Shown here: in pieces, positions 7,516-47,780 of the stretch
Position numbering within the stretch: position 1 is the stretch's first letter
Layout: every line of letters begins with the position of its first letter
Source of the DNA: a virus
Length of the DNA stretch: 47,780 nucleotides
Virus record (IMG/VR): IMGVR_UViG_3300021079_000015
Coordinates: 1 to 47,780 of that record
Direction: 5' to 3' (one strand)
The notes under the pieces: model-generated
Told to the model about the DNA's origin: nothing
What the model saw: only the letters and a program-made list of their open reading frames with translations
Databases searched by the model: none
Position numbers and translations under genes: made by a program

Positions 7516-7814
7516 GGGCGTACAATCACCATCCCGTACCGGCGCCCCAGAGGACTGACGTACTTGCCAGTCACGTCCCGGCGTACACGCAGCCGCTGAG
7601 TCTGGCCTAGCAACATGCCGGGGTTTGCCGTAGGACCGCTGCCAGTGGGCTGGAGTTGCTTCAGGACGACGAACGTCTTGGTGACAGCGCAGCAGAGCCA
7701 CGTCAGATCCGGCTCGGCTGCGGCCTCGTTATCATTCGGGATGTCGTAAGGCCGAAGCCCATACGGGGTGACAGAGTTGCCGTAGATTTGTCCTTTAACG
7801 AATTCGGTAGCCAT
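7512..7814 (-). CDS. Hypothetical phage protein
   Basis: A 100-residue protein starting MATEFVKGQIYGNSVTPYGL, with a hydrophobic LTWLCCAVTKTFVVL segment and a C-terminal basic stretch, GQTQRLRVRRDVTGKYVSPL. The composition suggests a compact beta-rich protein. No recognisable family. It sits between a small zinc-finger gene and the tiny membrane peptide in the packaging module. Confidence 0.6.
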   Translation of the reverse strand: MATEFVKGQIYGNSVTPYGLRPYDIPNDNEAAAEPDLTWLCCAVTKTFVVLKQLQPTGSGPTANPGMLLGQTQRLRVRRDVTGKYVSPLGRRYGMVIVRP

Positions 7815-25427: not shown

Positions 25428-25604
25428 TTAAAAATTAGGATCTTTGCTTCGCATAAGTGCAACAAGATTGTCCGCAAACCGTGCTGCCTGTTCAGGTGTC
25501 ATAAAAGACGCAATATCATGGGGCTCAATATCCTCTAATTTCTCTGGCAACTGCTCTGGCTTGCTCTCCAAGTCCTCGTTGTTCTGCGATTTTGATGAAT
25601 TCAT
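25428..25604 (-). CDS. Small acidic phage protein overlapping end of giant gene
   Basis: A 58-codon frame, MNSSKSQNNEDLESKPEQLP then MTPEQAARFADNLVALMRSK. It overlaps the last 80 bases of the giant gene and ends three bases before the ATP-grasp ATG. An internal ATG at 25502, after the giant gene, would give a 24-residue peptide. Neither start has a strong ribosome-binding site, so the start is uncertain. Confidence 0.45.
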   Translation of the reverse strand: MNSSKSQNNEDLESKPEQLPEKLEDIEPHDIASFMTPEQAARFADNLVALMRSKDPNF

Positions 25605-28600
25605 CGTCGTATGATTGCTTTAAATTTGATTCCTTTTTTCCTGATAATTTTGCCCACAAGTCTTTTTCTGGATACCACAAAATCGCCTGAACATCAGCAT
25701 TTGTAACAGTATACCCACGCTGCTCAAGTGCTTGTCTGATTTTGTTAACCACTCGTGAAATGACCATGCGATCTTGATCTGAGGGAATGTCAATTGGGTT
25801 AAGCTCAGAAACAATGACTTTTGCAGCTTTTGCCCATTCTGGCTTTAGTAGATTTTTTTCTGGGTTTTTAAGCTTCTCGGTTCGTTTTTGTTGGATGTGG
25901 CGAATTTTTATCCAATCATCCTTTTTTATCGGTTTGCTTGGATTTTCTTGATTGAGTGCTTTTTTCTGATCGTTGGTTAAGTTTGAAAACTCTTCGTTTA
26001 GGGTTTCTGTAATTTTGCCCTGCTCCTTAATGACCTTGCGGTACACTTTATCCAACCCATCTAGCTCTGCTTGAGTTGGCGCCTTGGGATTGGCCGGCAT
26101 TGCCGCTCGAACTTCTGCTGCAAGGCTCTCGCTCATGGGAGCACTCATTAGCGCATAATGGCGCTGAAATTCAGCATCGGATTCTTTGGCAAACCGTTCT
26201 ACTTCTTGCCTGAAGTCTAAATCGTTTTCCAGTCGGTCTTCTACATTCTCGCTGATTGTAAGCTCTGGTTTTGTTGGGTTGCCTTTTTCGGTCAGTCCAG
26301 TGCTACGCACAACAGTCTTGAGTCGTTTGATTGAATCTGGAAGCTGCTTCCCGTGATCTCGGAACGCTTTAATCATGCGCCCCAATCGAACCCCTGTTAC
26401 GCCATCACCAACAACGTCTCCTGTCCAGCGTCCCCAAGTCCTACGCATCCACAAGTCAATCGTGACTGGGTCAAACTTGCCCATCAAATTCTGAAGGAAT
26501 CCTTGGCCAATCTTTGGACCAAAGATTGCGGCGCCATTAACAATGTCGTCTTTTCTTCCAGAAATGCTAATTTTTCTACCAAGGGCATTAGATGCAGCGG
26601 CTTCAAGTTCTCTAACTGTAAATTCTTGTTTTACGAATTTTTGCAATTTGAGAATTCCGCCAAGTCTATCAATCATTTCGTTTGCAAGATTTAAGTTTGC
26701 AGAAATAGATTTTGCCTTTCCTCCGTATTCCTTTGATGGGTCAAACTTTCCTGTCTGCTGAAAGATATTGAATTGCTCTTCAGCAAATCTTGCATTTAAC
26801 GGAACAGTCATATTTTGCGAGGTGATCGCAAGCGGGAGACGAAGCGCAAAATTAGCAGCTTCAAGAGGATCAGATTCTTTTGCAAAAAACTGGTTTGCCT
26901 TTGCTGTAGTAATATCCGTGAGAACCTTGTGAATAATGCCAGCAACTTTCAATGCTGCCTGAATGGCAGTTGAATACCAGTTTGCGGCGTTTTTTCCTGA
27001 TGCTTTTAGTGCGGCTTCAGCTTCATCGGCGCCATTGGCAACAAGTTCATTTTCAATCTTTGGAGTGATGTTGCTGCTGGTGATTTTTTGACCGTGATAT
27101 CGTTCAGCAACATCAGCAAGTTGAATCGCAATATCGGCGTTGGTGCGTTTACCTTCTGGCTTTGGTAAAACCAAGCTGTCGCCGTGCAAAACATCAACCG
27201 CAGACATTGGCATTCTCTGGCGGATTTCTTCATCCCGGTCAGGCAGGAACCGCACCTGAGCGCCTTCAAACGGCTTGGGAACGCCGGACAGTGCGCCTTC
27301 TGTGGGAGTGGCTGAAGCTCCGCCAATCGTCAGCTTGTCGTAAACTGGGTGCTGCTTGCCCCGGATATCAATCGTTCCGATCTGCTCGCCAATCTGCAAT
27401 TCACCCCTGCCAGTGGGGCGCAGACGAGGCTCACTCGCCTTATCGGCGTACCGGGCCATCTTCACTCCATTCTGGAAGTCTGCCTGAAGAGCATAGAGGT
27501 GCTTTCCTTGTCCTTCAACCGACACAATGGTGCTTGTGTCCGGGGCGTCCTCGGAGACCCATTTCCAGCCGGCCTTTTGCTTAAAGAGGTTGGTCCTGAA
27601 CAGAGGACCGGTGCCGGTTGTTTCGGCCTCATTATTAGCAACCAATGACGGCTTGCCGTTAACGACAGCAATGCTGGCGTTTTCGTAGGTCTTGTTGGTT
27701 AGGTCTTCGCCGGCCTCAGCGTCAAAGAACTTCCCTCCTTTTTCGTACTGCGAGATGTTGAATTTGCCAAAAGCCTTTGGAGGTTCAACGTACCTACCTC
27801 TGCGCTCCTCCTCTTTGCCGGTGCCGGTAAACCGCTCAGGGACAACTGCCACGGATGGCATAAAGCGGATGTCTGCGCTTGCCGGGTTGAAACGCTTGGA
27901 CAAGGGGATCAGTTTACCAGCGTTGTCGTAGGTGAAGGGGTCGGCGGATTTAATAGACGCTGGGTCAGAAACGTATGCGATCCTGTTTCCATCATCTAAA
28001 TTAACGATGAACGCTTTGTGCGGCTTGTCTCTCACATCAAGCCCCCAGACATCCTTCGCCAAGGACTCTCGACTTGATTCAATTTCCTGAACTCCGTCAG
28101 GCAATCTGAGGTAAACGGACTTTATTTCAGGTTTAGCTGAGTCTGATTTAAGTTTCTTTGCTGCGTCAATGTATGCAGTCGTAAGCTCTGGCAGCTTGTC
28201 TTTGTAGTACGCCGCCTGAGCAAGGAACCAGTCGTGGATCTCTTCAGGAGAATCATCAAAATGCTCTGCCCCATACTCTGGAGCCATATCTATTTCAGTA
28301 TCTCCGTACTCGTGCTCTCCAATTATTTTTAGGGCCTCTGGGGAGTTGTCGTACTTTCGGAATACTCGGTTGATGGTCGATACGGCATTGGTCAATGCAA
28401 CTGTCTCGCCAGAGAATCCTTTGGCATAAACCTCCGCTGCACGCTTGTCTGTAGTGAATGAGAAGCCTCCACGAGAATGTCCTCCCATGGTCCCCTTGCG
28501 TTCTGGGTCAAACTCGTTAAATCCTCCAGTGGGAGTCCCGTGATAGAATTTTTCAGTTGAATATCCAGCCACTTCCGCAGTCTTACGCACCAACTCCCGA

Positions 28601-31600
28601 GCCTTCTCCTCATTTCCGGCCTCATGCGCCGCAGCGTGCTCGGCGTCCATTTGAGCCGGCAGGAACCGGGCTTGCCCGCCTTCCACAGAGGATCGCATCT
28701 CCGGGGTGATGTTGATCTTCCAAATGCCGTCGTTTCCAATACTTGAAGGCTCAACCTTAGCTCCCCACTGCTTCACATACTTGCCAATCTCTTTTGGCAG
28801 CATTGTGTCGTAGAAGCCTTTCATTCCCTCGCCGCCGAGTTTCAGGTCAACGCCTTCGTATATCTCTCTGTCTCCAGCTTCTTTTTGATTTTCAACTATC
28901 TTCTTTGCCAGCTCTTTGCCAATTGTCGCCTCAAGCTCAGACTCGGTTGTAATTCCCTTTTGGAAAACAGCAACTCCCTGATCTCTGCCTTCAATGTGCC
29001 AGCCATCTTCTTCTCTGCGAACAAGCAAAGCGTCAATTGCTTGAGCCAGACTATACCGATCTGCCTGCGCCTCTCCTCCAGTCCAACCGATCCACTCTTT
29101 GCCGTCAGCGACAGCTTTTTGGAGTGCGTGTTTGAAGAGTTGAATGGGCCAATCTTTGCGGAATGGTGCGTCGGCAACGCCGTCTTGACGCATTGCTCCT
29201 GCGTTCATTAAGGCTGTCCATTCCTTGCGCTCTTCAGGTGTTGCCGCTTGCCCTTTTGCTTCAATTTCACGCACCCTATTATAATCGCGAAGTTGTTCAT
29301 TTTTGTACCCTCTTTTCCTAGCCGCTTGATGCAAGTCAGACTGCAATTCTTCAATCAGCCTGCCATTTCCAAAGTCTTGTGTGCGCATATGCGCAACATA
29401 GTTTGGAACGTCGTTAAAGTGGCTAGACCTATAGTCAACGCCGGGCATGCGAAGTACTGTTTCTTCGTAGTTTGTGCCGCCAGAAAGTGTATAAGAAGAG
29501 TATTTTGTTTCTTCTGGAGTGTAAGCTGAATCGTATGCTGAATTTATTTCGTTTGTGTCCCAGACAAAAACTTCAGCTTCGCGACGGGTTAATCCAAATC
29601 TAGTTTCAGCAGCCTGAATTGCTTCTTCAATTGTTTTGAATTTTCCATTGTTTCCCCAGCCATCATTTAAAGAATAAAACGCATAATCTTCAGACACAGG
29701 TCTGGCTGGACGCATTGTCTGCGTCTCAAATTTTGCAGCATAGTCTTCCTTCAACCACTTCCTTATGTCGTCCTTGGTGACGTACCCCTTCTCGGCCTGA
29801 GTAGCATCGATGAACTGGTTGATGCCGCTCGACTTCATTTCGTCAGGCTTCACGCCACTACCCTTCTGCGGGTCTAGAATGCCCTTTATCTGCTCTGCGC
29901 TGGCCCGATTAGGCATCTTGTCCAACAGAACCCTGCCAGCCTTGCTGTAGAACCCGGGGGCAACCATAGTCGGGTCTTCTTCACGCTCTGGCATGAACCG
30001 CACCTGCGCCTCTGCTGGCTGAACCGTCGCTTTGACCTCTCCAGTGCCTTTCGGGTCGTACTTAGCAGACACTGCTTGCAAGCCCTTTAGGATGCCGCCA
30101 CCAAACGCAGGACGCTGCTCTTCCTGTGGTGCTACTTCTTGCTCGGGCATGAATCGGGCCTTGTACGGAATCGGATATTTAAGGTGCGTCGCTGCGTTCT
30201 CTTCAGCTTTGGTGTGCGCGTCGAGACGGTAACTCTTGATGATCTGAGCAAGGGGTGATTTCTTGTCAATTTTTCGTTCTGCCCGACTGAGTTTGTTTTT
30301 TGGAATGTCAGGAATTGATTCAACGTCTGGGACATTAGGATTCGGATCTCCAATCATCTTTGCGTAGATCGTCCGCTTCAGCCTTTGCGTTTCAGGATCT
30401 CCCTCAAGTGCGGTCCAAGCAGGCTCGTTAAGCTTCTTCGCGTATGCCTCGGCAACCTTTTGATCAAACTGTTCTTTTGCTGGACCTTGAAATGTGGATG
30501 GGTCAACGCCCTCTGCAATGTCCGCTCGAATCTTCTCAATATCAGGCTTTTCCGACAATTTTGGTAAAAGTTTTGTCCTGAATTCTTTCCAGAATGCATC
30601 AACGTCGCCGCCCCAAGGCTCAAAGACGCCCGGAGCGTAATTTTTGTAAAGTTGCACTTTTTTACGCAGGGCACTCAAGTCCCAAGCCTTAACATAAAAA
30701 TGCCCATCCTTAGAAAGATGCAACCTCAACGGAACAATTTGCCGAACCCTAGACACAAATGCCTCGTAATTGCCTTTTGCGTTTAACCGGGCTGCATAGT
30801 CAATATCCAGCACCGTCCCGTCATCGCGAGTTAGCAAATCGTCGTACTGAAACAAAAGGTCTTTTGTGGACGCCGCGACGATGCTTTCAGGAAGAGCCGC
30901 AATTGCTTCCCGTTGCTCATTTGTCATCTTGCCAGTGTAGCGCATCTCCCCCTCTTCCTCGCCTTCACCCTTGCTAGGAATTGCCTTAAAGCGTCCAATC
31001 TCAGACGGATCTCCAGCGTTATCAATTGCGTCTCGCAACACCTGATTGCGGTTTTTGATAAACTCTGCCGTTTCTTTGTTTTTGCGCTCTTTAGGTTTCC
31101 CGGTGGATTCGTCGTATGCAATTTTGCGCTCGACTGTAATGCGTCCACCAACTGGCACTTGAATTTGAATCAATTCTGGGTGCAATTCCCCGTATCCCTT
31201 TTCTTTGTTTGGGACAACATTTCCAGTCGCATCGTCTTGATGGTAAACCCAACTCCCTTCAGGTGCGTCGTTGTCTTTTAGGTCAACCGTCTGAACAACT
31301 TTGCCATCTGCGTCCGTAACTACAGCCACTGGGGTCGTCTCAAACTTTCCCGTGTCTTTAAAGTACTTATTGAGCATCTCTGGCGACTTGATCACGTCTT
31401 TCCTCGTAATCGGCGCAGCCACTGCTTCTCCCGGCTCTGCGTCAGTAAAGTCGCCGTCGTACTTCTTCATCTCCCGCTCGACGTTGCGTATCGCACGCAT
31501 AACCTCGGGGCTATAAGTCACTCCAACCGTACCAGAAGTCCACTGCTTGTAAACCGTTGGACCCGCAATTGCATACAAGTGATTCAGCGCAGATTTGACG

Positions 31601-34600
31601 TTTTCGCTGCTAACCCGGGAGGCAATCCAGTTGATTCCTTGCTGCAATGGTGACTCTGGGTCACCAAAGAACCTGCCAGCGTGCGCCTCTGCAAGGGTCT
31701 CTTCCCGCATCAATTGAACAATCTTGTTCTTGTCAAAATCGTTGGCAACTTCATCCCAAACTCCAGCGGCTTCAGCGTAAGCCTGAACTTGTTCTGTTGT
31801 CTTTCCTTCCAAGTATTTTGTGAAAAATTTGCCGAACAGATCATCCCGAGACATTCCGGGTTCAGCAGGAGTGATCTGTTGCACATTGCCATTTTCATCA
31901 ACAGCCTCTGTGCCGAACATTTTGTTGAACAAAGGTGCAATCCGCTTGCGGTAATCGTCTTTGCCAAACAAGCCGTGCCCAGCAACTTCGTGAGCGAGGA
32001 CGTTTGAGATAGCTTCCCCGGAAAGCTCCGCCTTTTTTAAAGCGTTTTCAACATTCACAAACACCGTATCTTTGGCAGGGTCCATCGTAAACCCGTCCTT
32101 GGCGGTGCCTCTCCCAATCATAATGCCGTTAGCGGTTGGGTTCTTTTTCAACGCCTGCTCAACCGTCATTGGTGCTCCAACACCGTTGAAATTAGGGTTT
32201 GCCGCAATCATCTTGTCAATAATTTGGCTCGATGTAAGCAACTCAATGTTCATGTTGCTGTTAGGAGTCAATACCCCGTTTATCAGGTTTGACACTTTCC
32301 CTAATGACAATTTAATACCGTCCTCGAACGCTTGCCGGGCTTCTGGGGGCGCAACTAAGTTCTCCCGATGAAGCTGATGAGCAAACTCGTAAGCTGCTTT
32401 AGCCTTAGCCGTTTCAGGAGTGTTTGCTCCTCTTGCCATTTCGGCAAAATACGCTTTTTGAGTTCGATCAAGACGTTTTTCAGACTGCTGAATAACCTTA
32501 TCCCAATTCAAATTAGTGACGGTTTCTCGCGTCTCAGGACTAAACCCCAGCATCACCCTTTGAGCCTGTCGCATCTCTGCGTCCCGGTCCATTTTTATCC
32601 GCACTGGATCGTTCCCGAGCAATCCTCCGAGAACTTGCCCGTGAATAAATCCATAAGTCGCAAACTCGGCCCACATATTTGCAAGCTCTTGAGCGTCCTT
32701 ATCTTCAAGCACCCCCATCGCAACCATCATTGGCAGCATTGAGACGTTGTGTTGCACGAACACGTTTGCGTTCTTTTCGATAAAATCCAGAGCTTTTCCG
32801 CCGCCTGCTTTCTGAGACCATTTTAGGAATCTCTGCACTTCAGGAGATGCTGATTCCATCTTCCCTAAAGCCTCAAATCTGCCCATCTCAGCACCCGACA
32901 TCCGCCCGGCTTTGAGTAATTGCTGCCCGAGTCGAGGAGCAGCTAGAAGTGCTTTGCCTCCGAGTTGGATGCCCGCACCAGCCCCTGCTCCCTCAAGAGC
33001 ACCTATCAGCGGGTCATCAGAAGCCAACGCCCCAGCACCTGCGCCAATCAGCGTTGACGCAGCGTATTTCGCCGATTTCGGAATATTCTCAAAAGCTGCC
33101 TTAGACCGATCAATAGTGTCTGCAATGTTGCCGAGAGGTTTTTCAAGCAACCCGGGCTGTTCGCTAATTTTTGCTGTTGCTGCGCGTTGAGCCTGCAATG
33201 CCGCACTGTCGGCAGCGTACATTGCGTTTTTGGCTTCCTGAGTCATTCCCGCCGCCCTTAATCCTCGGCCTATTCTACTACCCAACATTCCAAAATCTCG
33301 AACAACCGCTCCGCCCAGACCGAACACATTCAAAGGAGTTGTCATTGCAACTGCCCCGACCTGCTCGGGGTCTTCCTTCAGCCTGTTTGCCTCAGTAATC
33401 ATCGCCTGCACCCCAGCATTTGCGGCTTCTGATGCCTGTGCTCTGCGATTAGCTCTTGCAGCTTCAATGTCTCCACCAAAGCCCGGAGCTGCGTCCTCCG
33501 CCGGGGGCATTAGCTTTTCAACAACATCAATCCAGTATTTCCTGATAGCAGGATCTTGCCAAAGCTCATCAACGGTTCGAGAGAGCACAGCAGGATTCTT
33601 TTCCTTCTGCATGTGCTCGATGTGCTTTGCATTTAGCCGAGTCGCAAAGTTCCTTCTGGCTTCCGCCATTGCAGGAGCAACAGCAGCTTCGCGCCTTGCA
33701 TTCTCTTCTTCAATGGAAACCGCAGGCGTGACTGAAGGATCGCCTAGATTTGCAGTCGCCCCAGCAAAGCCAACTCTGGCCTTGTCCCAGAGCATAGCCT
33801 TGCCTTCTGAGAAGTTCTTTGTGGCGTTCAGAAGATCTTCTCTAGCCATCAGCAAGGCATCCGCAGGCACACGAGCTGCTCGAATTGCCTTGTCGCGAGG
33901 AGACAACTCAGCTTCCTGAATCTGCTGCGCAGTCATCCCTTTCTTTTGCTCGTCAGTAAGCGTTGCGCCCTTCCCGAATGCTTCTGGGCTCCCAGCGTAC
34001 ACCGCTCCAGTTAGAGCATCCTTTGCGAGCCTTCCAGCACCACCAACAAGCGGTGGCAATGACTCCAGCATTCCCATCCCGGCTTTGGCTACGCCTTTAA
34101 CCGTATCAAAAACACCCGTTGACTCGTTCCATTCGTGCAAAAACAACGATTCGGTCTGTAACGGGTTTTGAGAAATGTTGTACCAAGGAACTTTCTCTTT
34201 TATTTCTTTAAGATCGCGAGGGTCGGTGATGTCCTTAAATACGCTCTCAATGATTCCCTTTCGAGTATCGGGATCAGTCACCCCTGCATACTTGTCAAAT
34301 CTACTTTCTGCACCGATTGAAACTGGAGAAAACTGACCAGAGCCTAGCGCCCCGCTGCCAACAAGCGGAGCCTGTTGAGGAGCCATAAATTGACCACCTC
34401 CAGACAACGTGTTGCCAGTAGATCCTAACAATGGTTGAGACGGCTCGGATGGCGTTTGGTTTTTAAATGCAGCCGAAAGCACTTGCTGCTTCAAACTGTC
34501 ATCCTTGCTCTCATCTGACGCTGGCAACTCACTTTGACTGGGTTCGCTTTGCTTTGGTGCTTCTCCTCTAAATGCAGCAGCAAGCACCTTTTCTTCCAAA

Positions 34601-34620
34601 CTATCCTTAGAGTCAGCCAT
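25525..34620 (-). CDS. Giant polyvalent ejection-type protein with metallopeptidase and ADP-ribosyltransferase domains
   Basis: A single 3031-residue protein, of the size seen for proteins injected with phage DNA. A hydrophobic Gly/Ala segment (ASTLIGAGAGALASDDPLIG) lies in the first quarter. HEVAGH at residues 877-882 is a zincin-like site common in polyvalent proteins. EELQSDLHQ (1757-1765) and GMKGFYD (1932-1938) mark two modules shared by large phage polyvalent proteins. From 2025, FYHGTP (His2027), GGFSFTTDKRAAEVYA and the closing DPASIKS match ART-PolyVal ADP-ribosyltransferases. The C-terminal 600 residues contain FDPVTIDLWMRRTWGR and VQAILWYPEKDLW, also typical. RFMP/RFLP occurs five times between domains. 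Likely roles are virion ejection plus modification of host proteins. Confidence 0.85.
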   Translation of the reverse strand: MADSKDSLEEKVLAAAFRGEAPKQSEPSQSELPASDESKDDSLKQQVLSAAFKNQTPSEPSQPLLGSTGNTLSGGGQFMAPQQAPLVGSGALGSGQFSPVSIGAESRFDKYAGVTDPDTRKGIIESVFKDITDPRDLKEIKEKVPWYNISQNPLQTESLFLHEWNESTGVFDTVKGVAKAGMGMLESLPPLVGGAGRLAKDALTGAVYAGSPEAFGKGATLTDEQKKGMTAQQIQEAELSPRDKAIRAARVPADALLMAREDLLNATKNFSEGKAMLWDKARVGFAGATANLGDPSVTPAVSIEEENARREAAVAPAMAEARRNFATRLNAKHIEHMQKEKNPAVLSRTVDELWQDPAIRKYWIDVVEKLMPPAEDAAPGFGGDIEAARANRRAQASEAANAGVQAMITEANRLKEDPEQVGAVAMTTPLNVFGLGGAVVRDFGMLGSRIGRGLRAAGMTQEAKNAMYAADSAALQAQRAATAKISEQPGLLEKPLGNIADTIDRSKAAFENIPKSAKYAASTLIGAGAGALASDDPLIGALEGAGAGAGIQLGGKALLAAPRLGQQLLKAGRMSGAEMGRFEALGKMESASPEVQRFLKWSQKAGGGKALDFIEKNANVFVQHNVSMLPMMVAMGVLEDKDAQELANMWAEFATYGFIHGQVLGGLLGNDPVRIKMDRDAEMRQAQRVMLGFSPETRETVTNLNWDKVIQQSEKRLDRTQKAYFAEMARGANTPETAKAKAAYEFAHQLHRENLVAPPEARQAFEDGIKLSLGKVSNLINGVLTPNSNMNIELLTSSQIIDKMIAANPNFNGVGAPMTVEQALKKNPTANGIMIGRGTAKDGFTMDPAKDTVFVNVENALKKAELSGEAISNVLAHEVAGHGLFGKDDYRKRIAPLFNKMFGTEAVDENGNVQQITPAEPGMSRDDLFGKFFTKYLEGKTTEQVQAYAEAAGVWDEVANDFDKNKIVQLMREETLAEAHAGRFFGDPESPLQQGINWIASRVSSENVKSALNHLYAIAGPTVYKQWTSGTVGVTYSPEVMRAIRNVEREMKKYDGDFTDAEPGEAVAAPITRKDVIKSPEMLNKYFKDTGKFETTPVAVVTDADGKVVQTVDLKDNDAPEGSWVYHQDDATGNVVPNKEKGYGELHPELIQIQVPVGGRITVERKIAYDESTGKPKERKNKETAEFIKNRNQVLRDAIDNAGDPSEIGRFKAIPSKGEGEEEGEMRYTGKMTNEQREAIAALPESIVAASTKDLLFQYDDLLTRDDGTVLDIDYAARLNAKGNYEAFVSRVRQIVPLRLHLSKDGHFYVKAWDLSALRKKVQLYKNYAPGVFEPWGGDVDAFWKEFRTKLLPKLSEKPDIEKIRADIAEGVDPSTFQGPAKEQFDQKVAEAYAKKLNEPAWTALEGDPETQRLKRTIYAKMIGDPNPNVPDVESIPDIPKNKLSRAERKIDKKSPLAQIIKSYRLDAHTKAEENAATHLKYPIPYKARFMPEQEVAPQEEQRPAFGGGILKGLQAVSAKYDPKGTGEVKATVQPAEAQVRFMPEREEDPTMVAPGFYSKAGRVLLDKMPNRASAEQIKGILDPQKGSGVKPDEMKSSGINQFIDATQAEKGYVTKDDIRKWLKEDYAAKFETQTMRPARPVSEDYAFYSLNDGWGNNGKFKTIEEAIQAAETRFGLTRREAEVFVWDTNEINSAYDSAYTPEETKYSSYTLSGGTNYEETVLRMPGVDYRSSHFNDVPNYVAHMRTQDFGNGRLIEELQSDLHQAARKRGYKNEQLRDYNRVREIEAKGQAATPEERKEWTALMNAGAMRQDGVADAPFRKDWPIQLFKHALQKAVADGKEWIGWTGGEAQADRYSLAQAIDALLVRREEDGWHIEGRDQGVAVFQKGITTESELEATIGKELAKKIVENQKEAGDREIYEGVDLKLGGEGMKGFYDTMLPKEIGKYVKQWGAKVEPSSIGNDGIWKINITPEMRSSVEGGQARFLPAQMDAEHAAAHEAGNEEKARELVRKTAEVAGYSTEKFYHGTPTGGFNEFDPERKGTMGGHSRGGFSFTTDKRAAEVYAKGFSGETVALTNAVSTINRVFRKYDNSPEALKIIGEHEYGDTEIDMAPEYGAEHFDDSPEEIHDWFLAQAAYYKDKLPELTTAYIDAAKKLKSDSAKPEIKSVYLRLPDGVQEIESSRESLAKDVWGLDVRDKPHKAFIVNLDDGNRIAYVSDPASIKSADPFTYDNAGKLIPLSKRFNPASADIRFMPSVAVVPERFTGTGKEEERRGRYVEPPKAFGKFNISQYEKGGKFFDAEAGEDLTNKTYENASIAVVNGKPSLVANNEAETTGTGPLFRTNLFKQKAGWKWVSEDAPDTSTIVSVEGQGKHLYALQADFQNGVKMARYADKASEPRLRPTGRGELQIGEQIGTIDIRGKQHPVYDKLTIGGASATPTEGALSGVPKPFEGAQVRFLPDRDEEIRQRMPMSAVDVLHGDSLVLPKPEGKRTNADIAIQLADVAERYHGQKITSSNITPKIENELVANGADEAEAALKASGKNAANWYSTAIQAALKVAGIIHKVLTDITTAKANQFFAKESDPLEAANFALRLPLAITSQNMTVPLNARFAEEQFNIFQQTGKFDPSKEYGGKAKSISANLNLANEMIDRLGGILKLQKFVKQEFTVRELEAAASNALGRKISISGRKDDIVNGAAIFGPKIGQGFLQNLMGKFDPVTIDLWMRRTWGRWTGDVVGDGVTGVRLGRMIKAFRDHGKQLPDSIKRLKTVVRSTGLTEKGNPTKPELTISENVEDRLENDLDFRQEVERFAKESDAEFQRHYALMSAPMSESLAAEVRAAMPANPKAPTQAELDGLDKVYRKVIKEQGKITETLNEEFSNLTNDQKKALNQENPSKPIKKDDWIKIRHIQQKRTEKLKNPEKNLLKPEWAKAAKVIVSELNPIDIPSDQDRMVISRVVNKIRQALEQRGYTVTNADVQAILWYPEKDLWAKLSGKKESNLKQSYDDEFIKIAEQRGLGEQARAVAREIRGY

Positions 34621-38160: not shown

Positions 38161-39171
38161 TTAACTTGAAGCCTTGTTTAAGGTTTGAAACTGAAGAGCC
38201 AATGGAACAATTTCAGATCCACAAGAGACTGAATTGAACCAATCCAGAGTGTTTTGGCGAATTGCCTTCCGAATTGCAAACCTGTTCCATTCAAGGTCTG
38301 GAACTCTGTTTTCCGTCATCCAAACAGAAGCTTTTTCAGAGTCAAATATACCAATAGACTTCCACATTTTGGCAGATTGCTCAAATATCTGCTCTTCACT
38401 AGCAACAACCCCGGCCTGCATCGCCAATTCGGTTAGCATCCAGAAGTCGAACGATTCGTCTTTCAAAAAGGCTAATTCCCACTTGCGCTTGCCAGAGTAA
38501 AATGTGTCGTTTTTTAAGAGTGAAACCAACAGTGAATTTAACGAGTTTTTTGCTTTTTCCTTTTCCAACACAGGCAAGTCTGACGCCATCATTTTTGCAA
38601 GCGCCTCTTCAGCATCCAGCCTCTTTTGGTCAATGTAGCAGGCTCGAATCAATTCGTGTTCTCGAATCAGCGCCCGGATCGCAGACCAGTTCCTGTTTGG
38701 ATAGTAAATCGCAGCGCACTCTGAGATGACCTTTTCGGCACTGGCAATTGCCCCTTTTGCCTCAAGAGCCAGACACGTCGCCCTAATGTTGACCAACGGA
38801 ACCGAGCAGGGCTCAAAACTACTACTTGCGTCGAGGTGCGTTAAGGCAACGTCGGCGTCGTCTGTGCAGGTTCCGTTTTTGTACCATTCGGCGATCTTGC
38901 CGTAGACCTCCATCCCGTATCGCTCGCACTCGACGCCTCGGAGGGCGCCTAACGACGCTGCGCCGATAACCCGAACCCCGGCTTCAATGGCAAAGAGAAC
39001 CTCTTTGTGCCAAGGCGCCAGATGCTGCGTGAACAGTCCGTCCACAAGCAGGATGCTTTTCACTCCATCTAAAACAGCGGTAGCAATGTCTCCTTGCTGG
39101 GCCGGGGGATAGATCTCAACTCCTTCAGGGAATTGCATTCCAACCCCGGTCGGTCCAATGAATACCCTCAT
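38161..39171 (-). CDS. tfuA: TfuA-like partner of YcaO
   Basis: A 336-residue protein with the complete TfuA core in its first 130 residues: RVFIGPTGVGM, EIYPPAQQGDIATAVLDG, SILLVDGLFTQ, PWHKEVLFAIEAGVRVIGAA, SLGALRGVECERYGMEVYG and CTDDADVALTHLDA. TfuA partners YcaO enzymes that make thioamides in peptide backbones (as in methyl-coenzyme M reductase and thioviridamide-type peptides) and is thought to help deliver sulfur. The C-terminal 200 residues are helical. The ATG at 39171 overlaps the YcaO stop (ATGA), so the two are coupled. After its stop comes an 89-base gap. Confidence 0.9.
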   Translation of the reverse strand: MRVFIGPTGVGMQFPEGVEIYPPAQQGDIATAVLDGVKSILLVDGLFTQHLAPWHKEVLFAIEAGVRVIGAASLGALRGVECERYGMEVYGKIAEWYKNGTCTDDADVALTHLDASSSFEPCSVPLVNIRATCLALEAKGAIASAEKVISECAAIYYPNRNWSAIRALIREHELIRACYIDQKRLDAEEALAKMMASDLPVLEKEKAKNSLNSLLVSLLKNDTFYSGKRKWELAFLKDESFDFWMLTELAMQAGVVASEEQIFEQSAKMWKSIGIFDSEKASVWMTENRVPDLEWNRFAIRKAIRQNTLDWFNSVSCGSEIVPLALQFQTLNKASS

Positions 39172-40310
39172 TTCACCCTCCCTTTTGCCCCATAAACATG
39201 CAAATACCCAGCCAACCCGGGAACAAGGACGCGCACCACTGAGCAAGGGTACGAGTGGGCAAACTCTTTGTAAAAAACTCCAGTGAACCCTGCTGTTTGT
39301 AGTTTCTGATTCAAGACTTCCATATCGCCGTAAAAACTCTCGGTAGACTCGTCTTTGTGAAACGTGCTTGAAACGATATTTTCTCCTGACAGTAATTTGG
39401 CAATATTCTCAGATGTGTCGTTTTGCTTTGTTTTAAAAAACAGTTCAGAAGAAATGTCGTCTCTTGCCCCGGACATCCAAACAACCCGTCCTTGAACAGC
39501 CTCGCAGACAGCCCGGCATTGAGCAACAACCGGGTCCAGATGGGAGGCATACCCCCGATAAATGCCAGTCTGGCGCTCGGAGTCGTAAAGGTACGCAGTA
39601 TAAGTGGGAACTTTTATGTCTCCAGTGCAGTCAAAGATTATAGGGAAAATGCCGTTCTTGCGAAGGAGCTGGATTAGCCCCTGCAATGTTTCGTCAGCGA
39701 TTGAATCCAAATCAACTCTAGGGGGAGATCCCGGGTGTCCCATTGCTGCCGAGACTTGATCCCGCTCAATCACCTCGTACAGTCCCCCTGCAAGAGCTTC
39801 GTGCAGCGTGTTGCCCGACGAAAGCCCATTACTGGTTGAAGTGAAGCAAGAGTGAAATAAAGGGGCAAAGGACTGCCTGTGAATCATCTTTACCACTTCA
39901 ATCGGCACAAAAGCATCTCCTCCAAAGAGTCCCTTAACAGAGGTCCACTCCCGTTCAATTTCAGGGCTGTAAAACGCGCCTTTCATTAATTGAAACCTTG
40001 CCTCTGAGCCTTCAAGGTCAATCCCCGCAACTTTGAATCCAGCAACATTTGCCGACTCGCCAACGTGCCGCTCAAAGCCTTCCATCATTGCGCTGGCTCT
40101 GGCGGCGTCCTTTGTTGCCCCTTTGCCAGAGTCTACCGACAAATAAACGGCATCCGGGCGAATGCACTGCGAAACGTGAATTCCAGAGCAGTCCAGCCCG
40201 GTAATGTCCGAGATCCGAGTGATCCCAGCGTCCCTGTAAAAAGGACGCATCCGCTCAATGGTTTCTTCCGGGGAACACGAACGCTGCGCCCCTTCTAGGC
40301 GGACCTTCAT
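39168..40310 (-). CDS. ycaO: YcaO-family peptide-backbone-modifying ATPase
   Basis: A 380-residue YcaO protein. The ATP/Mg2+-binding elements are all present: DSGKGATKDAARASAMMEGF (60-79) with Glu77, NGLSSGNTLHEALAGGLYEV followed by IERD (161-184), and VVAQCRAVCEAVQG (261-274) with GARDDI (281-286). The end VVRVLVPGLAGY (358-369) fits the TfuA-associated type rather than azoline-forming enzymes with a Pro-rich C-terminus. YcaO phosphorylates a backbone amide oxygen; with TfuA the product is usually a thioamide. The ATG at 40310 overlaps the stop of the CFI-box gene (ATGA). No precursor peptide gene of the usual type is next to it. Confidence 0.92.
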   Translation of the reverse strand: MKVRLEGAQRSCSPEETIERMRPFYRDAGITRISDITGLDCSGIHVSQCIRPDAVYLSVDSGKGATKDAARASAMMEGFERHVGESANVAGFKVAGIDLEGSEARFQLMKGAFYSPEIEREWTSVKGLFGGDAFVPIEVVKMIHRQSFAPLFHSCFTSTSNGLSSGNTLHEALAGGLYEVIERDQVSAAMGHPGSPPRVDLDSIADETLQGLIQLLRKNGIFPIIFDCTGDIKVPTYTAYLYDSERQTGIYRGYASHLDPVVAQCRAVCEAVQGRVVWMSGARDDISSELFFKTKQNDTSENIAKLLSGENIVSSTFHKDESTESFYGDMEVLNQKLQTAGFTGVFYKEFAHSYPCSVVRVLVPGLAGYLHVYGAKGRVK

Positions 40311-41323
40311 GCCCAATTTCGCTCTAGCATCCCGAGAACCGACCGAGTTGCAAACCGAGTGATGGAACAAAGTCCAACAAACTTAGCAACACGTTCGCCA
40401 TACTTGCAATAGAGCGAAATGACCCTGTCTGGCGCCCCTTTAAACATTGCGTTTCTAAATTGAAGCCACCTGTCTGTCGTCGTGCCAAACGCTGCTCTAG
40501 CCACCCAACAGAAAGCAGCAGCAACAGCCGCAGTGCTGCCTGCCGCAACATAAGATCCCGTCTCGGCGTTTGCGCTGTTCGCGGAATCGCTGGCGGCTTT
40601 CATAAGCCCCTGACGGTACTGTTGTTCGCCTTGATTGAATGCATTGATTGATTGAGAGTTTGAGCCCATCATCTGGTTTACCCAGTCCATTGTTGATTGG
40701 TTGCTAGCTCCAGCAGCGCCAACGCTAGCATTTCGCCGCTGATTACGTTGCTGCATTGCAGACAAGTTTGCTGCGTTTTGAGCGCCGAGGATGTGGGCCG
40801 TATCGATGCCTGCAACCGGGGTCGGATTCGCCCCTAGAAATTGAGCCGCTTTCCCTTCCTGTGCATTCCGTAAAGCTGCGCCTTCAGCCGTTGCCCTGTC
40901 GTAAAATGCAGACTTGCCGACAGTAGAATCTCCGAGACCACTGCCAATACTCTGGACTAGCCCCTGATGTTTAGACCAGTCATCCATTCGCTTCTGCCAC
41001 TCGCCGGGTTGGATGTCTTCCTTGATCATCTTAGGAAGCTGCGCCCGAATTGCTGTCGTCTCCGGGCTCATCTGCTGTTCAAGCTTCCGGGATTGAGCAG
41101 TGTTGATAGCCGGGATCTGCTGCGCCTGCTCGTTTGCTCCGCCAGCCCCAAAGATGTTTGGAGCGTTCTGCTCCATTGGCATGCCTGCCGCAAGGTTCAT
41201 CAGCGCATTCTGCTGATTAATGCCCGCCCCCGTCGCCTGCCGCTGCAACGCCATCTGTTTGGCCATAACATCGTAGTTAGGCCGATACATGTACTGACTA
41301 TAATCTGGCGTTTGTCCTCCCAT
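40307..41323 (-). CDS. Virion-module protein with CFI-box-like C-terminal domain
   Basis: A 338-residue protein. The start, MGGQTPDYSQYMYRPNYDVM, is followed by Gln/Ala-rich helices through about residue 265, suited to an internal virion or scaffold role. From Cys272 the sequence is CWVARAAFGTTTDRWLQFRN, then APDRVISLYCKYGERVAKFV. This matches the CFI-box C-terminal domain pattern (C-F/W-I/V-A-x-A-Y/F-G, R-FR, Y, G, A) found at the ends of many bacterial and phage proteins, whose function is unknown. It is preceded by a Gly/Ala-rich segment. The stop overlaps the YcaO start (ATGA), which makes it a leading candidate YcaO-TfuA substrate (inference only). Confidence 0.75.
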   Translation of the reverse strand: MGGQTPDYSQYMYRPNYDVMAKQMALQRQATGAGINQQNALMNLAAGMPMEQNAPNIFGAGGANEQAQQIPAINTAQSRKLEQQMSPETTAIRAQLPKMIKEDIQPGEWQKRMDDWSKHQGLVQSIGSGLGDSTVGKSAFYDRATAEGAALRNAQEGKAAQFLGANPTPVAGIDTAHILGAQNAANLSAMQQRNQRRNASVGAAGASNQSTMDWVNQMMGSNSQSINAFNQGEQQYRQGLMKAASDSANSANAETGSYVAAGSTAAVAAAFCWVARAAFGTTTDRWLQFRNAMFKGAPDRVISLYCKYGERVAKFVGLCSITRFATRSVLGMLERNWA

Positions 41324-41324
41324 A

Positions 41325-41711
41325 TTAGTGCGGCAAGTATAACTCTCGGTTGAGTCGTTTTAACCCAATTTTGGCCATAGTTCCCTCTGAGAAGTTACCA
41401 TTTCCGTTGTCATTGTCAAATGGTACACCGATATACCCCGGGGTGCCAGATAATTGGCTATGCGTCCGCCAGTCAGCCATTACCCTAATAACGTCTCGGG
41501 GATTTGTAAACTCAGGATGAAACGCCGGGTAAACCGTAGGAATGAAAACATGATCAGAGTATCCAATGAGTTTTCCGCCCCGGTAATGGGCGTAATGATT
41601 GATCTTTGGATGCGCAACAATAGTGTGATTAAACGAGACAGCAAAATGCTGCAACTCTTCAAAAGCAGGGGTATTTTGAGGGATTAAACGGTATTCAATG
41701 GATTCGCGCAT
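41325..41711 (-). CDS. Hypothetical phage protein, acetyltransferase-fold-like
   Basis: A 128-residue protein starting MRESIEYRLIPQNTPAFEEL. It includes YRGGKLIGYSDHVFIPTVYP, then FHPEFTNPRDVIRVMADWRT and GYIGVPFDNDNGNGNF. The strand arrangement with an internal GKLIGY is reminiscent of GNAT folds, but no acetyl-CoA loop is clear. It lies between the small protein and the CFI-box gene in the virion module. Function unknown. Confidence 0.6.
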   Translation of the reverse strand: MRESIEYRLIPQNTPAFEELQHFAVSFNHTIVAHPKINHYAHYRGGKLIGYSDHVFIPTVYPAFHPEFTNPRDVIRVMADWRTHSQLSGTPGYIGVPFDNDNGNGNFSEGTMAKIGLKRLNRELYLPH

Positions 41712-41961: not shown

Positions 41962-44103
41962 TTAAGAGCAGGGGTGAATAATCCTGTAGTTCTTCGCAGC
42001 AATCGTTGCTGCATTAGTTGCGGCTGTATCAGCCTGCGTATCGGCATCAGCCTGCGATACCCGGGAGATCACCGTTTGAGTTGCCGTTGCGCTAACAGCG
42101 ATGGCCGTTGATGGAGGCGTGCAGCGAAGCGTCACTGTGCGCGTGCGAGTCGAGGTCCAACTGCTAATCTCGGACGACTTCTGCTCTTGAGGCGGCGGTT
42201 CAATCGCAGCGGTAATGGTCGCCCCGTCTTCCGCCACTACGCAATACAGAACCTCGTTTGGAGTGACCTTACCAGTGCTCTGCGTCGGATACGGGTCTTG
42301 AAACATCCGAATCGATTCAACTCCCATTGCGCCGCACCATTCCAACAAAAACGAAAACGCTTTGTCTACATTGGCAGCAAACGGGCTTTCGCAACTTACA
42401 ATTTCAGAGTTAGGCTGTACTGTTTCAGTAGTTAGCCTGCGATGCTGAGTTTGAAGAAACCCGAGGTCGTTAATCGATTCTGAAACGACTTGATTTGTCT
42501 GGTACTGGTACTTTTCAGTCGCGGCAAGAATGCGGGTGTTGAGGATAGGCAAGTACGCCCCTTTTGAGCCCCTGTAAGATGTTTTAACATCAACTACCCC
42601 AGAGATCTGGCTGCATTCTAGCTCTCCGTAGACAATCTGCTTCAAATCCATTCCATCACCCATCAAGGCGGTCTCCATCTGGCAGTAAATGCGCTGAATA
42701 AGCTCTGACGTAGTGCCGTCAGCCTTGATGTTCAAATATGTGTCGTATCGGTTTTGAGTGAACCCTTCCCACAAAGAGTTGAAACTCCCGTCGTTTGAGG
42801 AGACGTAATCGACTGAGAATGCAAAGACCCGGGGTTGCGAATCAATAACGCCTGCCGCCCACTCAACGGGCCGAATGCCGGTCCACACTCCAGACCAAGC
42901 CGGAACGCGAGACTGGTTGAATTCTGAAGCCGCAGCGTAATCCAGCACCATTGTCGCACTGTTGAGCGTCTCAAGGTAGGGGATGCTGTAAAGCAGGTAG
43001 TTTTCAAACGAAACGGCACAGATACCCGACAAGTTTGCAGACATCAGCCTCTTTGCCTTTGCCATCTCGATGTCTTTGTACAGCACCTGCGAGGACAGAT
43101 ACGACGCAGCGGCAACGTCGGCAGAGACAAGTCCGCCTTGAGAATACCACCACATCATCCCGGCTTGAAACGAGATGCTTTTGCCTGCTACACATCCGAT
43201 TGCGGGGTAGAGCACATTTTGAAAGTTCGCAGTCGTTGCCCACAATGCTCGATCCAGAATTCCAGAGGCAAATGAATGGGTCGTGCGGTCGGTGAAAACG
43301 TACAGCCGGGAGTCGTTATTCTGGCCGATATAATCGACCATTGCGGTCACCGGGCGCGGCACAATAAAGTCGCCCCTTCCAGTGCCAGAGAGCCGCTCTT
43401 GCCATCCTAGCGGGTTCCCGAGGTCCGATGCTGAAATGACGTTGGAATTAGCCACCCAAAGCCTGTTCCCGGAGAATGCCATCCAGTACCCTAGCGGGAT
43501 CTCGGACGACTGCGCCCCAGTTGTGGTTGCCCCGTCCCAATACCCGGCAGAAGAAATCCCATCCTGCACAATTATTAACCTGTGCGACGGCGTGATAGTG
43601 ACGCTCCCCGCCGAAACCTGTGCCGACTGAGTGGCGGTCACAAAGTTCACCTTGTCCACAGTGGCATCGAGCGTGATGCCGTTGAGTTGATAGTCTTCCC
43701 AGTTTTTTGGCTGCACCAACGGGAACGGAGCGTAGTAAACTTTGCCGTCCACCGCAAAAACAGCATAGGAAAGCTCTGTTTTTTGAATCTGCCCGCCTTC
43801 CGGGGTCCATATTGTCGCGGGCTGAAACACCTGCGCCCCAGAGGCATTAGTGAACACATTAGCCGCCTGATACTGCTTGTTTGCGTTGAAGATGATGCCG
43901 CCCTGAAAGTTTCCAGCGGGCAACGAGAGCCGCATACTAAACCCGGGCCGAGTCTGGGCAATCCCGCCCCGAATGTTGACGTTTTGAGCCCACTTAATCT
44001 GGTCGTCAGGTAATGCCCAAGGATTCCGAACGCTGTTGACTCCGTGAATCCAGCCTGCGGTGACCTTTTGAAGCCGTCCTGAACTGATATTTGGGCTTTT
44101 CAT
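41962..44103 (-). CDS. Tail or neck structural protein
   Basis: A 713-residue beta-rich protein. Starting MKSPNISSGRLQKVTAGWIH, it contains GVNSVRNPWALPDDQIKWAQ, LIIVQDGISSAGYWDGATTT, GYWMAFSGNRLWVANSNVIS and TRPGFSMRL, a style seen in podovirus tail, stabilisation or tailspike-hub proteins whose beta-propeller-like body binds the neck. A C-terminal Ser/Ala/Thr helix (ISRVSQADADTQADTAATNA) resembles the DUF5977-type tail. It follows the 1210-residue structural gene with a TAG-GC-ATG junction. No enzyme motif is visible. Confidence 0.7.
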   Translation of the reverse strand: MKSPNISSGRLQKVTAGWIHGVNSVRNPWALPDDQIKWAQNVNIRGGIAQTRPGFSMRLSLPAGNFQGGIIFNANKQYQAANVFTNASGAQVFQPATIWTPEGGQIQKTELSYAVFAVDGKVYYAPFPLVQPKNWEDYQLNGITLDATVDKVNFVTATQSAQVSAGSVTITPSHRLIIVQDGISSAGYWDGATTTGAQSSEIPLGYWMAFSGNRLWVANSNVISASDLGNPLGWQERLSGTGRGDFIVPRPVTAMVDYIGQNNDSRLYVFTDRTTHSFASGILDRALWATTANFQNVLYPAIGCVAGKSISFQAGMMWWYSQGGLVSADVAAASYLSSQVLYKDIEMAKAKRLMSANLSGICAVSFENYLLYSIPYLETLNSATMVLDYAAASEFNQSRVPAWSGVWTGIRPVEWAAGVIDSQPRVFAFSVDYVSSNDGSFNSLWEGFTQNRYDTYLNIKADGTTSELIQRIYCQMETALMGDGMDLKQIVYGELECSQISGVVDVKTSYRGSKGAYLPILNTRILAATEKYQYQTNQVVSESINDLGFLQTQHRRLTTETVQPNSEIVSCESPFAANVDKAFSFLLEWCGAMGVESIRMFQDPYPTQSTGKVTPNEVLYCVVAEDGATITAAIEPPPQEQKSSEISSWTSTRTRTVTLRCTPPSTAIAVSATATQTVISRVSQADADTQADTAATNAATIAAKNYRIIHPCS

Positions 44104-44105
44104 GC

Positions 44106-47100
44106 CTAGAACATCACTGGGTCAGATCCGTCTCCGTAGGTCTCGTTATTGATCTGCGGAGGCATCATTGCATGCCCGTCCATACTGTCGTTTTCGTTCC
44201 TCAAATACATCATCGCCGTCTGCCAATATTTTTGGCTCTGTTCAACGAAATCTTTGTCTTCCAAATCAACAGCGTGAACCGCAGCAATAACGGCCCGAGT
44301 GTTTTCGATTGGAATGTAATCGTAAACCGAAGTGATCTCAGGGGCTTTTACTCTGTAAATGATTCGAGCCCAAGCACAGGGCTTCCCAATGCGAATGCGA
44401 CGATACTTTGGGTTGGTCTCAGACGGGTGGTACTGCCCGATCAGCGCCATATCGTTCGAGCGCCCATAGTCAAAAGCGTACAGAGAGACATACCCAACAG
44501 TCAGAGGCTTTTCAACGTGACGCACAATTTTTACCAGCGTTTGAGAAGTGACCAAATCACTAAAAAAGACTGAGGTGATTTGGTCTCCGCTTGTCAGATA
44601 TTCAACGCGACCCGTTGTCACGCTTGTGTTTATAGCGTTCGCAAAAGTGTCGTAAAGCTCAAATGCATTCCCGCTAACTGAACGAGCATAATATAGATGA
44701 GGATTGTTGTAAGTGCTTGCCAATAAGGGCACTGGCAGTGTGTCGTTTTCATTTGAGCGTACAGTGATTTGATTGCCTGTTTCAATTAGTGAATTTGCGC
44801 AAATAATTGAAGTAGAAGGCAATGCAGTAAACGCCCTAACCACATTTAGAACCAACTGGCCAACGCCCAATGTCGTGAAAGAAACTGGGGTTCCCGATGC
44901 CGTTAATGTGACTCCGTTGCCAGTGATGCTCTCAATTAAGTAGGTAGTAGATGGGCTTAATGGGGCTGGAAGCGTGCCGCTACTCGTGAATGAAACCCTT
45001 TGTCCGGCAGTAAGATAAACAGACGAATCAAGCGTGACTGTGTTCTGATAAACAACCGAAGTTGCAGCCAAAATTACAGACAAATACGACTGCCCTACGC
45101 CTATTTGAATCACCTTAATGGGAGTGACCAAAGAAGAATTCGGATACAGGTAGGCTTCTGTTTCTGTGATCTTTTTGATGAAAACAATCGAATCTGGAGA
45201 CGTTGAAGGGTCCGTAATCGGAAGCTGATAATCCGTTTGCAGGGTCACCGAGCTGCCGTCAGCGATGCCAGCAAAGTCTCCAACCCACTTGTCTGTGAAG
45301 CCAACGCCAAATGTCCGAGAGATAACAAGGTAGAAATTTCCAGACCCGGTTGAAGTTATATTGACTTCTGAGTGATCGGAATTTCGGACAGTGAACGTGC
45401 TCGCAGAAGATGGCGCCTCAGCAAGGTAGGAATTTCCCTGCTCAAGCGGCTGCGGCATTGTGCCAGTGCTTGAGAACTGCACAAAAACACCGCTTGAAGG
45501 CGTTACTGTGGCAACCGGGGCTGATGTGTACCCAGTGCCTTGCGCGACCATTGTGACATTTGTCACGACACCGCCGTTGATGACAGCAGTGGCAACCGCT
45601 CCTAAGCCTTGTCCGCCGGTAAAGAAAATAGCAGGAGCGGTCGTGTATCCGCTTCCCCCTTGAACAACTTTACAAGTTTTAACAAAAGCTGTTGTGATTG
45701 TGCAGGAGGCCGTTGCTTGAGCCCCAGTCTCGGTAATGGTCGTGCTTGCAATTGCGGGGGAATGCGTGTTCGACACACTATATGTGCCGTTGCCACCCTC
45801 TGTTCCTGTCAAAAACCCAGTGATTGTTGTGCCCGGGATGATGTTAGCGCCAGATATTGTGCCGCCAATCCGAACAACCCCAGAAGTCACTCCTGTCACT
45901 GTCAGCGTTGTCGTATCAATTGACCCTGTAAAAACGGCTCCTTGTGCCGCTGTAATAACAATGCGGGGCGGGTACAAATAGTTTGCCCCGGGAGAAATAA
46001 GCGCGATTCCGTTTACAAGCGTTGAGACAGTATTGACTGACACATTTGCCGATGCGCCGGAACCTAAAGAATTAAGCGTGATGCTCGTTACTTGCCCGCC
46101 CGAGATGTTTGGAGTCGCAACAGCTTCAAAGCCGTTTGTGGCCAATCCGCCACTAAACACAATTGTTGGAGGAGTGAGAGGGTCATATCCACTGCCAACC
46201 GAGTCCATTACAATGGAGGAGACGTATTTAATGCCAGTGGCTGCATCCGTTGCTAAAACAGCATGCGCCGTTGCCACACTTGTGTGGGTTCCTCCCGAAA
46301 CAAGCACAGACGGCACCGAATTATAATTATATCCGCCAGCGTCGGCAAACGTAGCAGATGCGGTGGTGTACCCGCCTCCACCCGAATTGACCACCGCACT
46401 AGTCACCGGGCCAACAACCTGAGGCTGCAAAACTGCGCCATTCCCAGAAGCCTGATTTAAGCTAAACCCAGCCGCAGAGATGTTGTTCTGCGTCCCTGCA
46501 ATTGCCGTTGCCGGGATTAGCTTTGCGATTGAAAAGCCGCCTGACCCAGTTGTGAGAAAGTTGATCGAATTGGTTTTGGCAATTGCGTCTGCGTAAGACA
46601 AATGAAGCGTCACTGCATTTGGTTCGCTTTGAATCAGCCCAATGTAGTACGACTGCCCCACAACCAACGGCTGCGGAAGCACTCCCCCATTGGTGTACGC
46701 CTCAACGGTATCGCCATCCGCAAATCCCGGAGGCGTTGAGAAAGTTAGCTTTGTTTGAGCCGTGATAGACTTGCGAATGCCAATCCTAAACCCTGCCGTA
46801 TTCCCGCTCAAATAAATTGGATTATTGCCGTTTTGAGCATCAATGCGCGTTGCAAAGATCTGCAAATGCGTCAAGTCGAGCTGAGTAACGAAATAAGTTA
46901 CACCGGTCTTCAGTGGCGAAGGAAGCGGCGTTCCAATGTCGATTTGATAGAAATTAACCTCATTTGGCGAGTCAATGACAATGGCCGGGGGCGCTCCTAA
47001 GGCTACAGCCGTCTGTAATTGTGCCTGCCTTGCGTCTGTCAGGGTTATTGCGTTATCAACGCACCCAACAATACTTTGAAGCTGAATTGGGTTCTGGCCG

Positions 47101-47780
47101 TAAATTGCATCCAGCTCGGACTGGTGGAGTTGAATTGTGACATCATCAACAACGCCAATGTAGTATTCAGCCCCCACAGTGAGGTCAGCCGGAGTGGCCC
47201 CAGAGACAATAGACAGCGTCGCTGATGGCCCAGACGTTAACTGGTGCGCAGTTGCCGATTCAAAGTCGGTCAGCGGTTCAATTGTCGAAGTCCGGGTTGT
47301 AATAGTGACGCCATCAGGCTGAATTGTGCCATACGGAAAATCGGACTGCGCGTGAATCGGAACCAGTAGCCCGTCCACTCCAGTTCCGTCGTCCATCTGC
47401 GAACGCAGGTCGCGATTGTTGCCGTCTGTGCCGATGACCCGGATCACCTTGCCAGCGTCAGCCTCATGTTCAGCCACTGCAACGAGCTGCGAGGGCTGGC
47501 GGATGTCCATCTGCGTCGAGACCATCCCTCGGTCGTCCCAAGCCCATCCCACCGGGTTGTACATCCCGCCTTTGTTGACGTGATACTGGAAAAGTCTCCC
47601 TCGAAAATAGGTCGGGCTCCCATCCACATTGACTGCCAACGGAACTTCAATATTCCGGGGCAGTGTTATGGTTTGAGCGTCCCAACCTGTGCAAACATCG
47701 ACTTCAGCATTGGTGTGGAACCAGTGCCCGGACTGCATGAGGATCTGGACTGCCTGAGTTAACTTCCGATACGCTTTGGG
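44106..47780 (-). CDS. Large beta-repeat virion protein, 5' end outside window
   Basis: The frame is open at the window edge (14 codons precede the first ATG at 47738), so the true start probably lies beyond. The visible part is over 1200 residues. The N-terminus ([40 protein letters not shown]) and the C-terminus ([40 protein letters not shown]) look like a conserved structural body. Between them are two repeat families: P-PL-xG-YYxG modules ending in a GSG-F strand, and G-GY-P-V glycine modules. Such repeats occur in phage tail and neck fibres. Likely role: tail or neck component. Confidence 0.7.

Follow-up and report, generated by a model that had tools for sequence, protein, structure and literature searches.

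A viral branch of the YcaO–TfuA system and its candidate substrate, the alanine-rich segment of a probable virion protein

Intact ycaO and tfuA genes, coupled to each other and to the gene of a probable internal virion protein, are present in a stretch of phage DNA of 47,780 bases (an IMG/VR-type virus record, the whole of which is called the window here), and IMG/VR holds about a hundred contigs with such a pair, which fall into two deep viral clades. We propose that the two enzymes thioamidate the phage's own neighbouring virion protein, probably in an Ala-rich segment, a reading that comparison of sequences gives about an even chance of being correct; the wider claim, that at least two deep phage lineages thioamidate the Ala-rich segment of their own ejected virion protein and would thus be the first viruses to install thioamides in the particle, stands somewhat short of even. 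Thioamides in proteins have been described for one methanogen enzyme and one ribosomal protein, besides a small number of natural products. If the proposal is true, virion proteins would be subject to a type of modification new for them, here linked with a probable ejection protein; an unusual Ala-rich segment would be accounted for, and a large protein could be modified with just two enzymes. YcaO–TfuA is the known thioamide-forming pair (PMC5589413, PMC8120280, PMC8153245); its viral branch, with a specific candidate virion substrate, is undescribed in the sources available, and a search of the literature for phage YcaO or TfuA or for thioamide virions returned nothing relevant.

The gene pair in the window

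The pair lies among genes of the same strand, of which the following are relevant here (window coordinates):

25525..34620 (−): giant ORF of 3031 aa at the end of the module, in the position of a large ejection-type protein in relatives
38161..39171 (−): TfuA, 336 aa (ATG at 39171, stop at 38161); TfuA domain and helical C-terminal extension of about 130 residues
39168..40310 (−): YcaO-domain enzyme, 380 aa (ATG at 40310, stop at 39168); predicted to carry out ATP-dependent peptide-backbone thioamidation
40307..41323 (−): 338-aa upstream gene for what is probably an internal virion or ejection protein; ATGA overlap with ycaO; position of HMO-2011 gp25
40310..40510 (−): conserved C-terminal helical domain of the upstream protein, residues 272–338, beginning with CWVARAAFG (from alignments)
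40511..40558 (−): Ala-rich segment of the upstream protein, GSYVAAGSTAAVAAAF, residues 256–271, Ala fraction 0.44; proposed thioamidation site
41325..41711 (−): 128-aa gene (family F32) ahead of the one for the proposed substrate; relatives have a small gene of about this size here
41962..44103 (−): gene of 713 aa (family F22), also part of this module; 58–63% identity in the nearest relatives

Both enzymes are complete, as had been claimed from the sequence alone: every motif quoted in that reading is found in the translations, and the Pfam models are covered, PF02624 by YcaO over model positions 1–324 of 325 (1.8e-55, 189 bits, cut-off 25.7) and PF07812 by TfuA in its entirety (1.1e-33, 116 bits, cut-off 30); YcaO also matches TIGR00702, the YcaO-type kinase domain (5.5e-54, 183.7 bits versus a cut-off of 75.65). 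Residues E77, E80, N161, E179, E182, R183, D184, R266, E270, Q273, R283, D284 and D285 of YcaO, which make up the putative ATP/Mg ligand motifs, are invariant in 17 viral homologues, two of them from clade II. The reported ATGA overlaps were read in the DNA, at 40310–40307 (stop of the upstream gene and start of YcaO) and at 39171–39168 (stop of YcaO and start of TfuA).

The nearest solved structures are those of Methanocaldococcus jannaschii MJ1094 for YcaO (phmmer 4e-21) and of Methanosarcina acetivorans TfuA, 6xp8, for TfuA (9e-27). The full-length sequence match leaves little doubt about the YcaO fold, and the TfuA fold is confirmed at the level of prediction, the AlphaFold model (pLDDT 86) matching 6xp8 with an E of 3e-14 and a TM of 0.78. 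The C-terminal extension of TfuA (window 38161–38560), for which no match was found in the PDB, is possibly a substrate-binding part; it is even longer in clade II (TfuA of L109 and L118). Among NCBIfam models, both proteins are best matched by those for McrA thioamidation, YcaO by TIGR03266 and TfuA by NF033432, with scores below the equivalog cut-offs (185.8 versus 365 bits and 130.7 versus 235.2 bits, respectively), and YcaO reaches 49 versus the required 700 bits with NF040716, the model of the uL16-modifying E. coli-type enzyme; on these scores, an equivalog identity of either the McrA or the uL16 type was rejected. The Pfam and NCBIfam domains do support the earlier assignment of the pair to the thioamide-forming kind, for which a thioamide would be the expected product.

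As for the genome, the window encodes a ParB-like protein, a terminase-small-subunit-like protein, RusA, a DnaC-like loader, SSB, a Sak4-like annealing protein, an exonuclease, a cytosine methylase and a phage PD-(D/E)XK nuclease; it may be incomplete, because ORFs run off both ends. The sequence-only reading had placed the pair in a virion operon. This agrees with the module of the relatives, which has tail-fibre and virion-structural matches, and with the gene order of Puniceispirillum phage HMO-2011; within the window itself the structural PHROG matches are weak and come only from a 1210-aa ORF (44106–47738), and we assign the genes around the pair to the virion by inference from these sources and from position.

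Occurrence and evolution in viruses

Among 50,697 annotated phage records, there was no match to YcaO or TfuA of the window and none to the TfuA queries of clade II, and the YcaO queries of clade II found a single record, that of an Escherichia phage with an E. coli-type ycaO, which bears out the statement that no described phage uses the pair. The metagenome search that had been suggested along with that statement was productive. In IMG/VR, YcaO of the window retrieved 60 loci and TfuA seven, six of them new, and a search with the C-terminal domain of the upstream protein alone found YcaO as the next gene in every contig with enough DNA. Some 80 real cases came from an exact-pattern scan for CW[VIL]ARA[AC][FY]G, which also revealed the second YcaO–TfuA clade, clade II, at 26–29% identity and mostly in contigs of 20–78 kb (L109, L118, L289, L307, L325, L330, L334, then L368–L381), where the gene order is small gene, domain gene, YcaO, TfuA. 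Records with this pattern and no YcaO are G012, G013 and G014; G019 and several others end right after the domain. TfuA follows YcaO wherever the contig is long enough. In one subgroup (L018, L041, L043, L053, L056) the two genes are separated by about 290–500 bases and lack the ATGA overlap.

That bacterial sequence was wrongly joined into the contig, which had been named as a possible objection, is excluded because some 60 viral contigs, each assembled separately, have this pair in the corresponding place. YcaO relatives are indeed common in bacteria, with 433 candidate stretches confirmed in genome contigs; chance capture of bacterial genes or an assembly error is nevertheless extremely improbable as an account of one gene order recurring in dozens of independent contigs, of viral clades each supported at 100/100 (clade I including the window, and clade II), and of purifying selection. 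The latter acts on both enzymes: in close pairs dN/dS is 0.04–0.18 for YcaO and mostly 0.10–0.24 for TfuA, with one value of 0.44. The nearest cellular relatives of the viral YcaO belong to a variety of bacteria, with identities of about 40% or lower, and at 80 cellular YcaO loci no CW[VIL]AR domain was found. Two acquisitions of ycaO–tfuA fit the tree best; a single viral clade is not rejected (AU test p 0.338), and with L441 added the starred branches force only one change. One or two origins of the viral pair are both compatible with the data, although two independent acquisitions had been expected from the tree.

In nearly all pair contigs the start of YcaO is within a few bases of where one particular gene ends, whose product has a total length of 264–977 aa, a variable N-terminal part and a conserved stretch of its last ~65 residues beginning with CW[VIL]AR. 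The constancy of this companion bears on the idea that an unrecognised precursor is turned by the two enzymes into a small thioamidated peptide, in effect a RiPP encoded by the phage, whose target might be competitors or the host. In bacteria, assignment of YcaO–TfuA pairs to RiPP clusters is widespread (PMC8120280); in the phages, however, no other small gene is common to the pair contigs in a survey of ORFs of 45 aa or more, so the conserved small precursor gene by which thioamidated RiPPs are recognised is missing from the surveyed neighbourhoods, neither a transporter nor a protease nor a tailoring enzyme was seen to accompany it, and the sole constant companion is a large protein. We consider a peptide product improbable. 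Between the domain gene and ycaO of one contig (L370, 7502–8041; G011) lies an ORF of 179 aa that looks by eye like an HNH endonuclease, CWVWTGAKNRGY.

The neighbouring probable virion protein

By its position, the product of the upstream gene is probably an internal virion (ejection) protein. Its C-terminal domain of ~65 residues, starting with CW[VIL]AR, gives a profile match to the HMO-2011 protein (4.4e-13). In the AlphaFold model the last 67 residues are confident helices (pLDDT about 90) and the remainder is poor; the Ala-rich segment is modelled as low-confidence coil ahead of the helical domain, and a fold search with the model found no match. The prediction suggests that a folded C-terminal domain next to a flexible Ala-rich stretch would suit a recognition element beside a target segment.

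The domain also exists without the pair. Its CWVAREVYG form is widespread, with at least 564 IMG/VR matches to a combined pattern, and is present in HMO-2011 gp25; the expectation that it is common in isolated phages is not borne out, HMO-2011 being the only annotated phage record found at E ≤ 0.01. Neither YcaO nor TfuA was found at any of the best 80 of these at least 564 loci, using HMMs that recover the known pairs in five control loci. The order in HMO-2011 is domain gene gp25, a 165-aa gene, a 502-aa gene and a large gene (gp25-gp24-gp23-gp22); because this is the same module minus ycaO–tfuA, the pair looks like a two-gene insertion.

The difference between proteins with and without the pair is greatest directly before the domain. 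In the 16 residues preceding CW the mean Ala fraction is 0.51 in clade I (55 distinct sequences, including a few clade II duplicates), 0.43 in clade II (n = 8) and 0.12 without the pair (n = 72, of which the highest has 31%), while the remainder of the same protein contains 16–18% Ala in all groups. Allowing for G+C, the effect of the pair on the Ala fraction is 0.32 ± 0.02, with rows that are non-independent. The segment is the most Ala-rich 16-mer of its protein in 42/47 and 11/16 sequences with the pair and in 2/73 without, and an Ala-rich stretch, mostly with 40–60% Ala, is present in all pair-bearing phages whose upstream protein is readable. The trait and its threshold were chosen after inspection of the data, and the independent contrasts on the domain tree number just three to four, which almost without exception go the way expected but are too few for significance. 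A scan for Ala-Ala-x-CW..ARE found Ala-rich segments without a detectable YcaO in L410 (0.56), L413 (0.50) and L389 (0.50), whose records may be incomplete; as a few pair-less contigs are thus also Ala-rich, Ala-richness is not proof of the pair. Ala-rich hydrophobic stretches of this kind could also simply be membrane-active segments in certain hosts.

The virion protein might be the substrate at another site, for example in the C-terminal domain around CW, or as an azoline at the invariant Cys. YcaO enzymes can form azolines, and the domain is altered in pair-bearing phages, where E-V after CWVAR becomes A-A/C and, in clade I, two near-invariant Trp are lost. Against this, the domain has been lost in L064–L066 and L059, close relatives of the window that keep the pair and in which the protein ends directly after an Ala-rich stretch such as GGATIAAAAAVVAAL; L009 and L406 have it in the ordinary CWVAREVYG form; its Cys is equally invariant with and without the pair; and TfuA points to thioamidation rather than azoline formation. 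Modification at such a site is accordingly doubtful in our view, if a shade less so than a peptide product. The domain had been considered as an obligatory substrate, an idea weakened by its absence from G006, G007 and G008, and 'ARA' after CWV was likewise weakened as a marker of the pair (broken by L009, L014, L371, L376, L406 and the pair-less G012–G014). CWVARE variants occur in L406, L371 and L376, the segment before them being Ala-rich likewise.

Two observations count against the neighbouring protein as the target: the domain is dispensable in L064–L066 and L059, and the pair of L007, L009 and L048 is found at a distance from the virion gene, with flanking genes on the opposite strand. 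They would fit a pair that thioamidates a host protein, for example ribosomal uL16 or a defence protein, and for which the place beside the ejection gene is just a handy point of insertion, maintained by recombination; in Pseudomonadota, uL16 is thioamidated by YcaO without a partner (PMC13063428). The uL16-type enzymes, however, act without TfuA and require a folded protein (PMC13063428), YcaO of the window falls far below the E. coli-type equivalog cut-off, and a host target leaves unexplained why the virion protein is Ala-rich in all readable pair-bearing phages. This includes L009, in which the pair has moved about 16 kb off (16.0–18.1 kb versus 0.8 kb), the domain is of the pair-less CWVAREVYG type, and the segment is still 56% Ala. 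A host protein thus seems an unlikely target, albeit the strongest competitor. The sequence-only reading had left the choice between a phage structural or injected protein, a host protein and an unrecognised peptide; the virion protein is favoured because of the comparative evidence, namely linkage and the Ala-rich segment.

Proposed reaction and companion genes

If the neighbouring virion protein is the substrate, YcaO would bind it during late expression, possibly with the folded C-terminal domain as recognition element, and would use ATP to activate a backbone carbonyl. TfuA would supply the sulphide, probably from a thiocarboxylated ThiS-type carrier of the host, since no ThiS-like gene was noticed in the window; sulphide delivery by TfuA and ThiS-type carriers has been described (PMC13063428). 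The product would carry at least one thioamide, each adding 15.98 Da and most likely placed in the Ala-rich segment, and the modified protein would then be packaged or used in ejection, with stiffness or protease resistance of the segment as a plausible benefit.

The closest known system is the McrA-glycine pair of methanogens, which provides the nearest solved structures and the best NCBIfam models for both proteins. It modifies a large protein and not a small peptide, as is proposed for the phage pair, and its ycaO and tfuA also have overlapping stop and start codons (PMC5589413); the phage proteins differ in lying far under the equivalog cut-offs, in the long C-terminal extension of TfuA and in being phage-encoded. 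E. coli YcaO likewise acts on a whole protein, at Met82 of uL16 (PMC13063428), yet does so without TfuA and on a ribosomal protein, and the phage enzyme scores below its equivalog cut-off. HMO-2011-type phages share the C-terminal domain (as CWVAREVYG) and the downstream gene order with the window, but have neither ycaO/tfuA nor an Ala-rich segment before CW. The core peptides of thioviridamide-type RiPPs are Ala-rich and end in Cys, and in these features they resemble the phage segment, which we treat as a lead only. In their biosynthesis YcaO and TfuA (TsaH/TsaI) carry out the first modifying step on the precursor, and thioamides are reported to lose H2S (33.99 Da) (PMC8153245); unlike those clusters, the phage pair has no small precursor or RiPP tailoring genes beside it among the ORFs surveyed, and its proposed target is a protein of 338 aa.

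Some other genes of these phages deserve mention. The 128-aa product of 41325..41711 has no Pfam match. The 3031-aa ORF has a weak match to ART-PolyVal, an ADP-ribosyltransferase domain, at residues 2024–2160 (2.8e-6, just under the cut-off). A 236-aa protein (window 23453–24163, minus strand) matches the Erv1/Alr sulfhydryl oxidase model with its C-terminus (1.8e-7, over the cut-off), around CPCEAHLKQW, which would be unusual in a phage if real. In L015 the small gene immediately before the domain gene (7202–7597) encodes a SET-domain protein (PF00856, 1.3e-10), possibly another protein-modifying enzyme beside the same virion gene; this family, F24, is also found in L006, L022, L052, L058 and L070, and the other phages carry a different gene of ~130–150 aa upstream of the domain gene.
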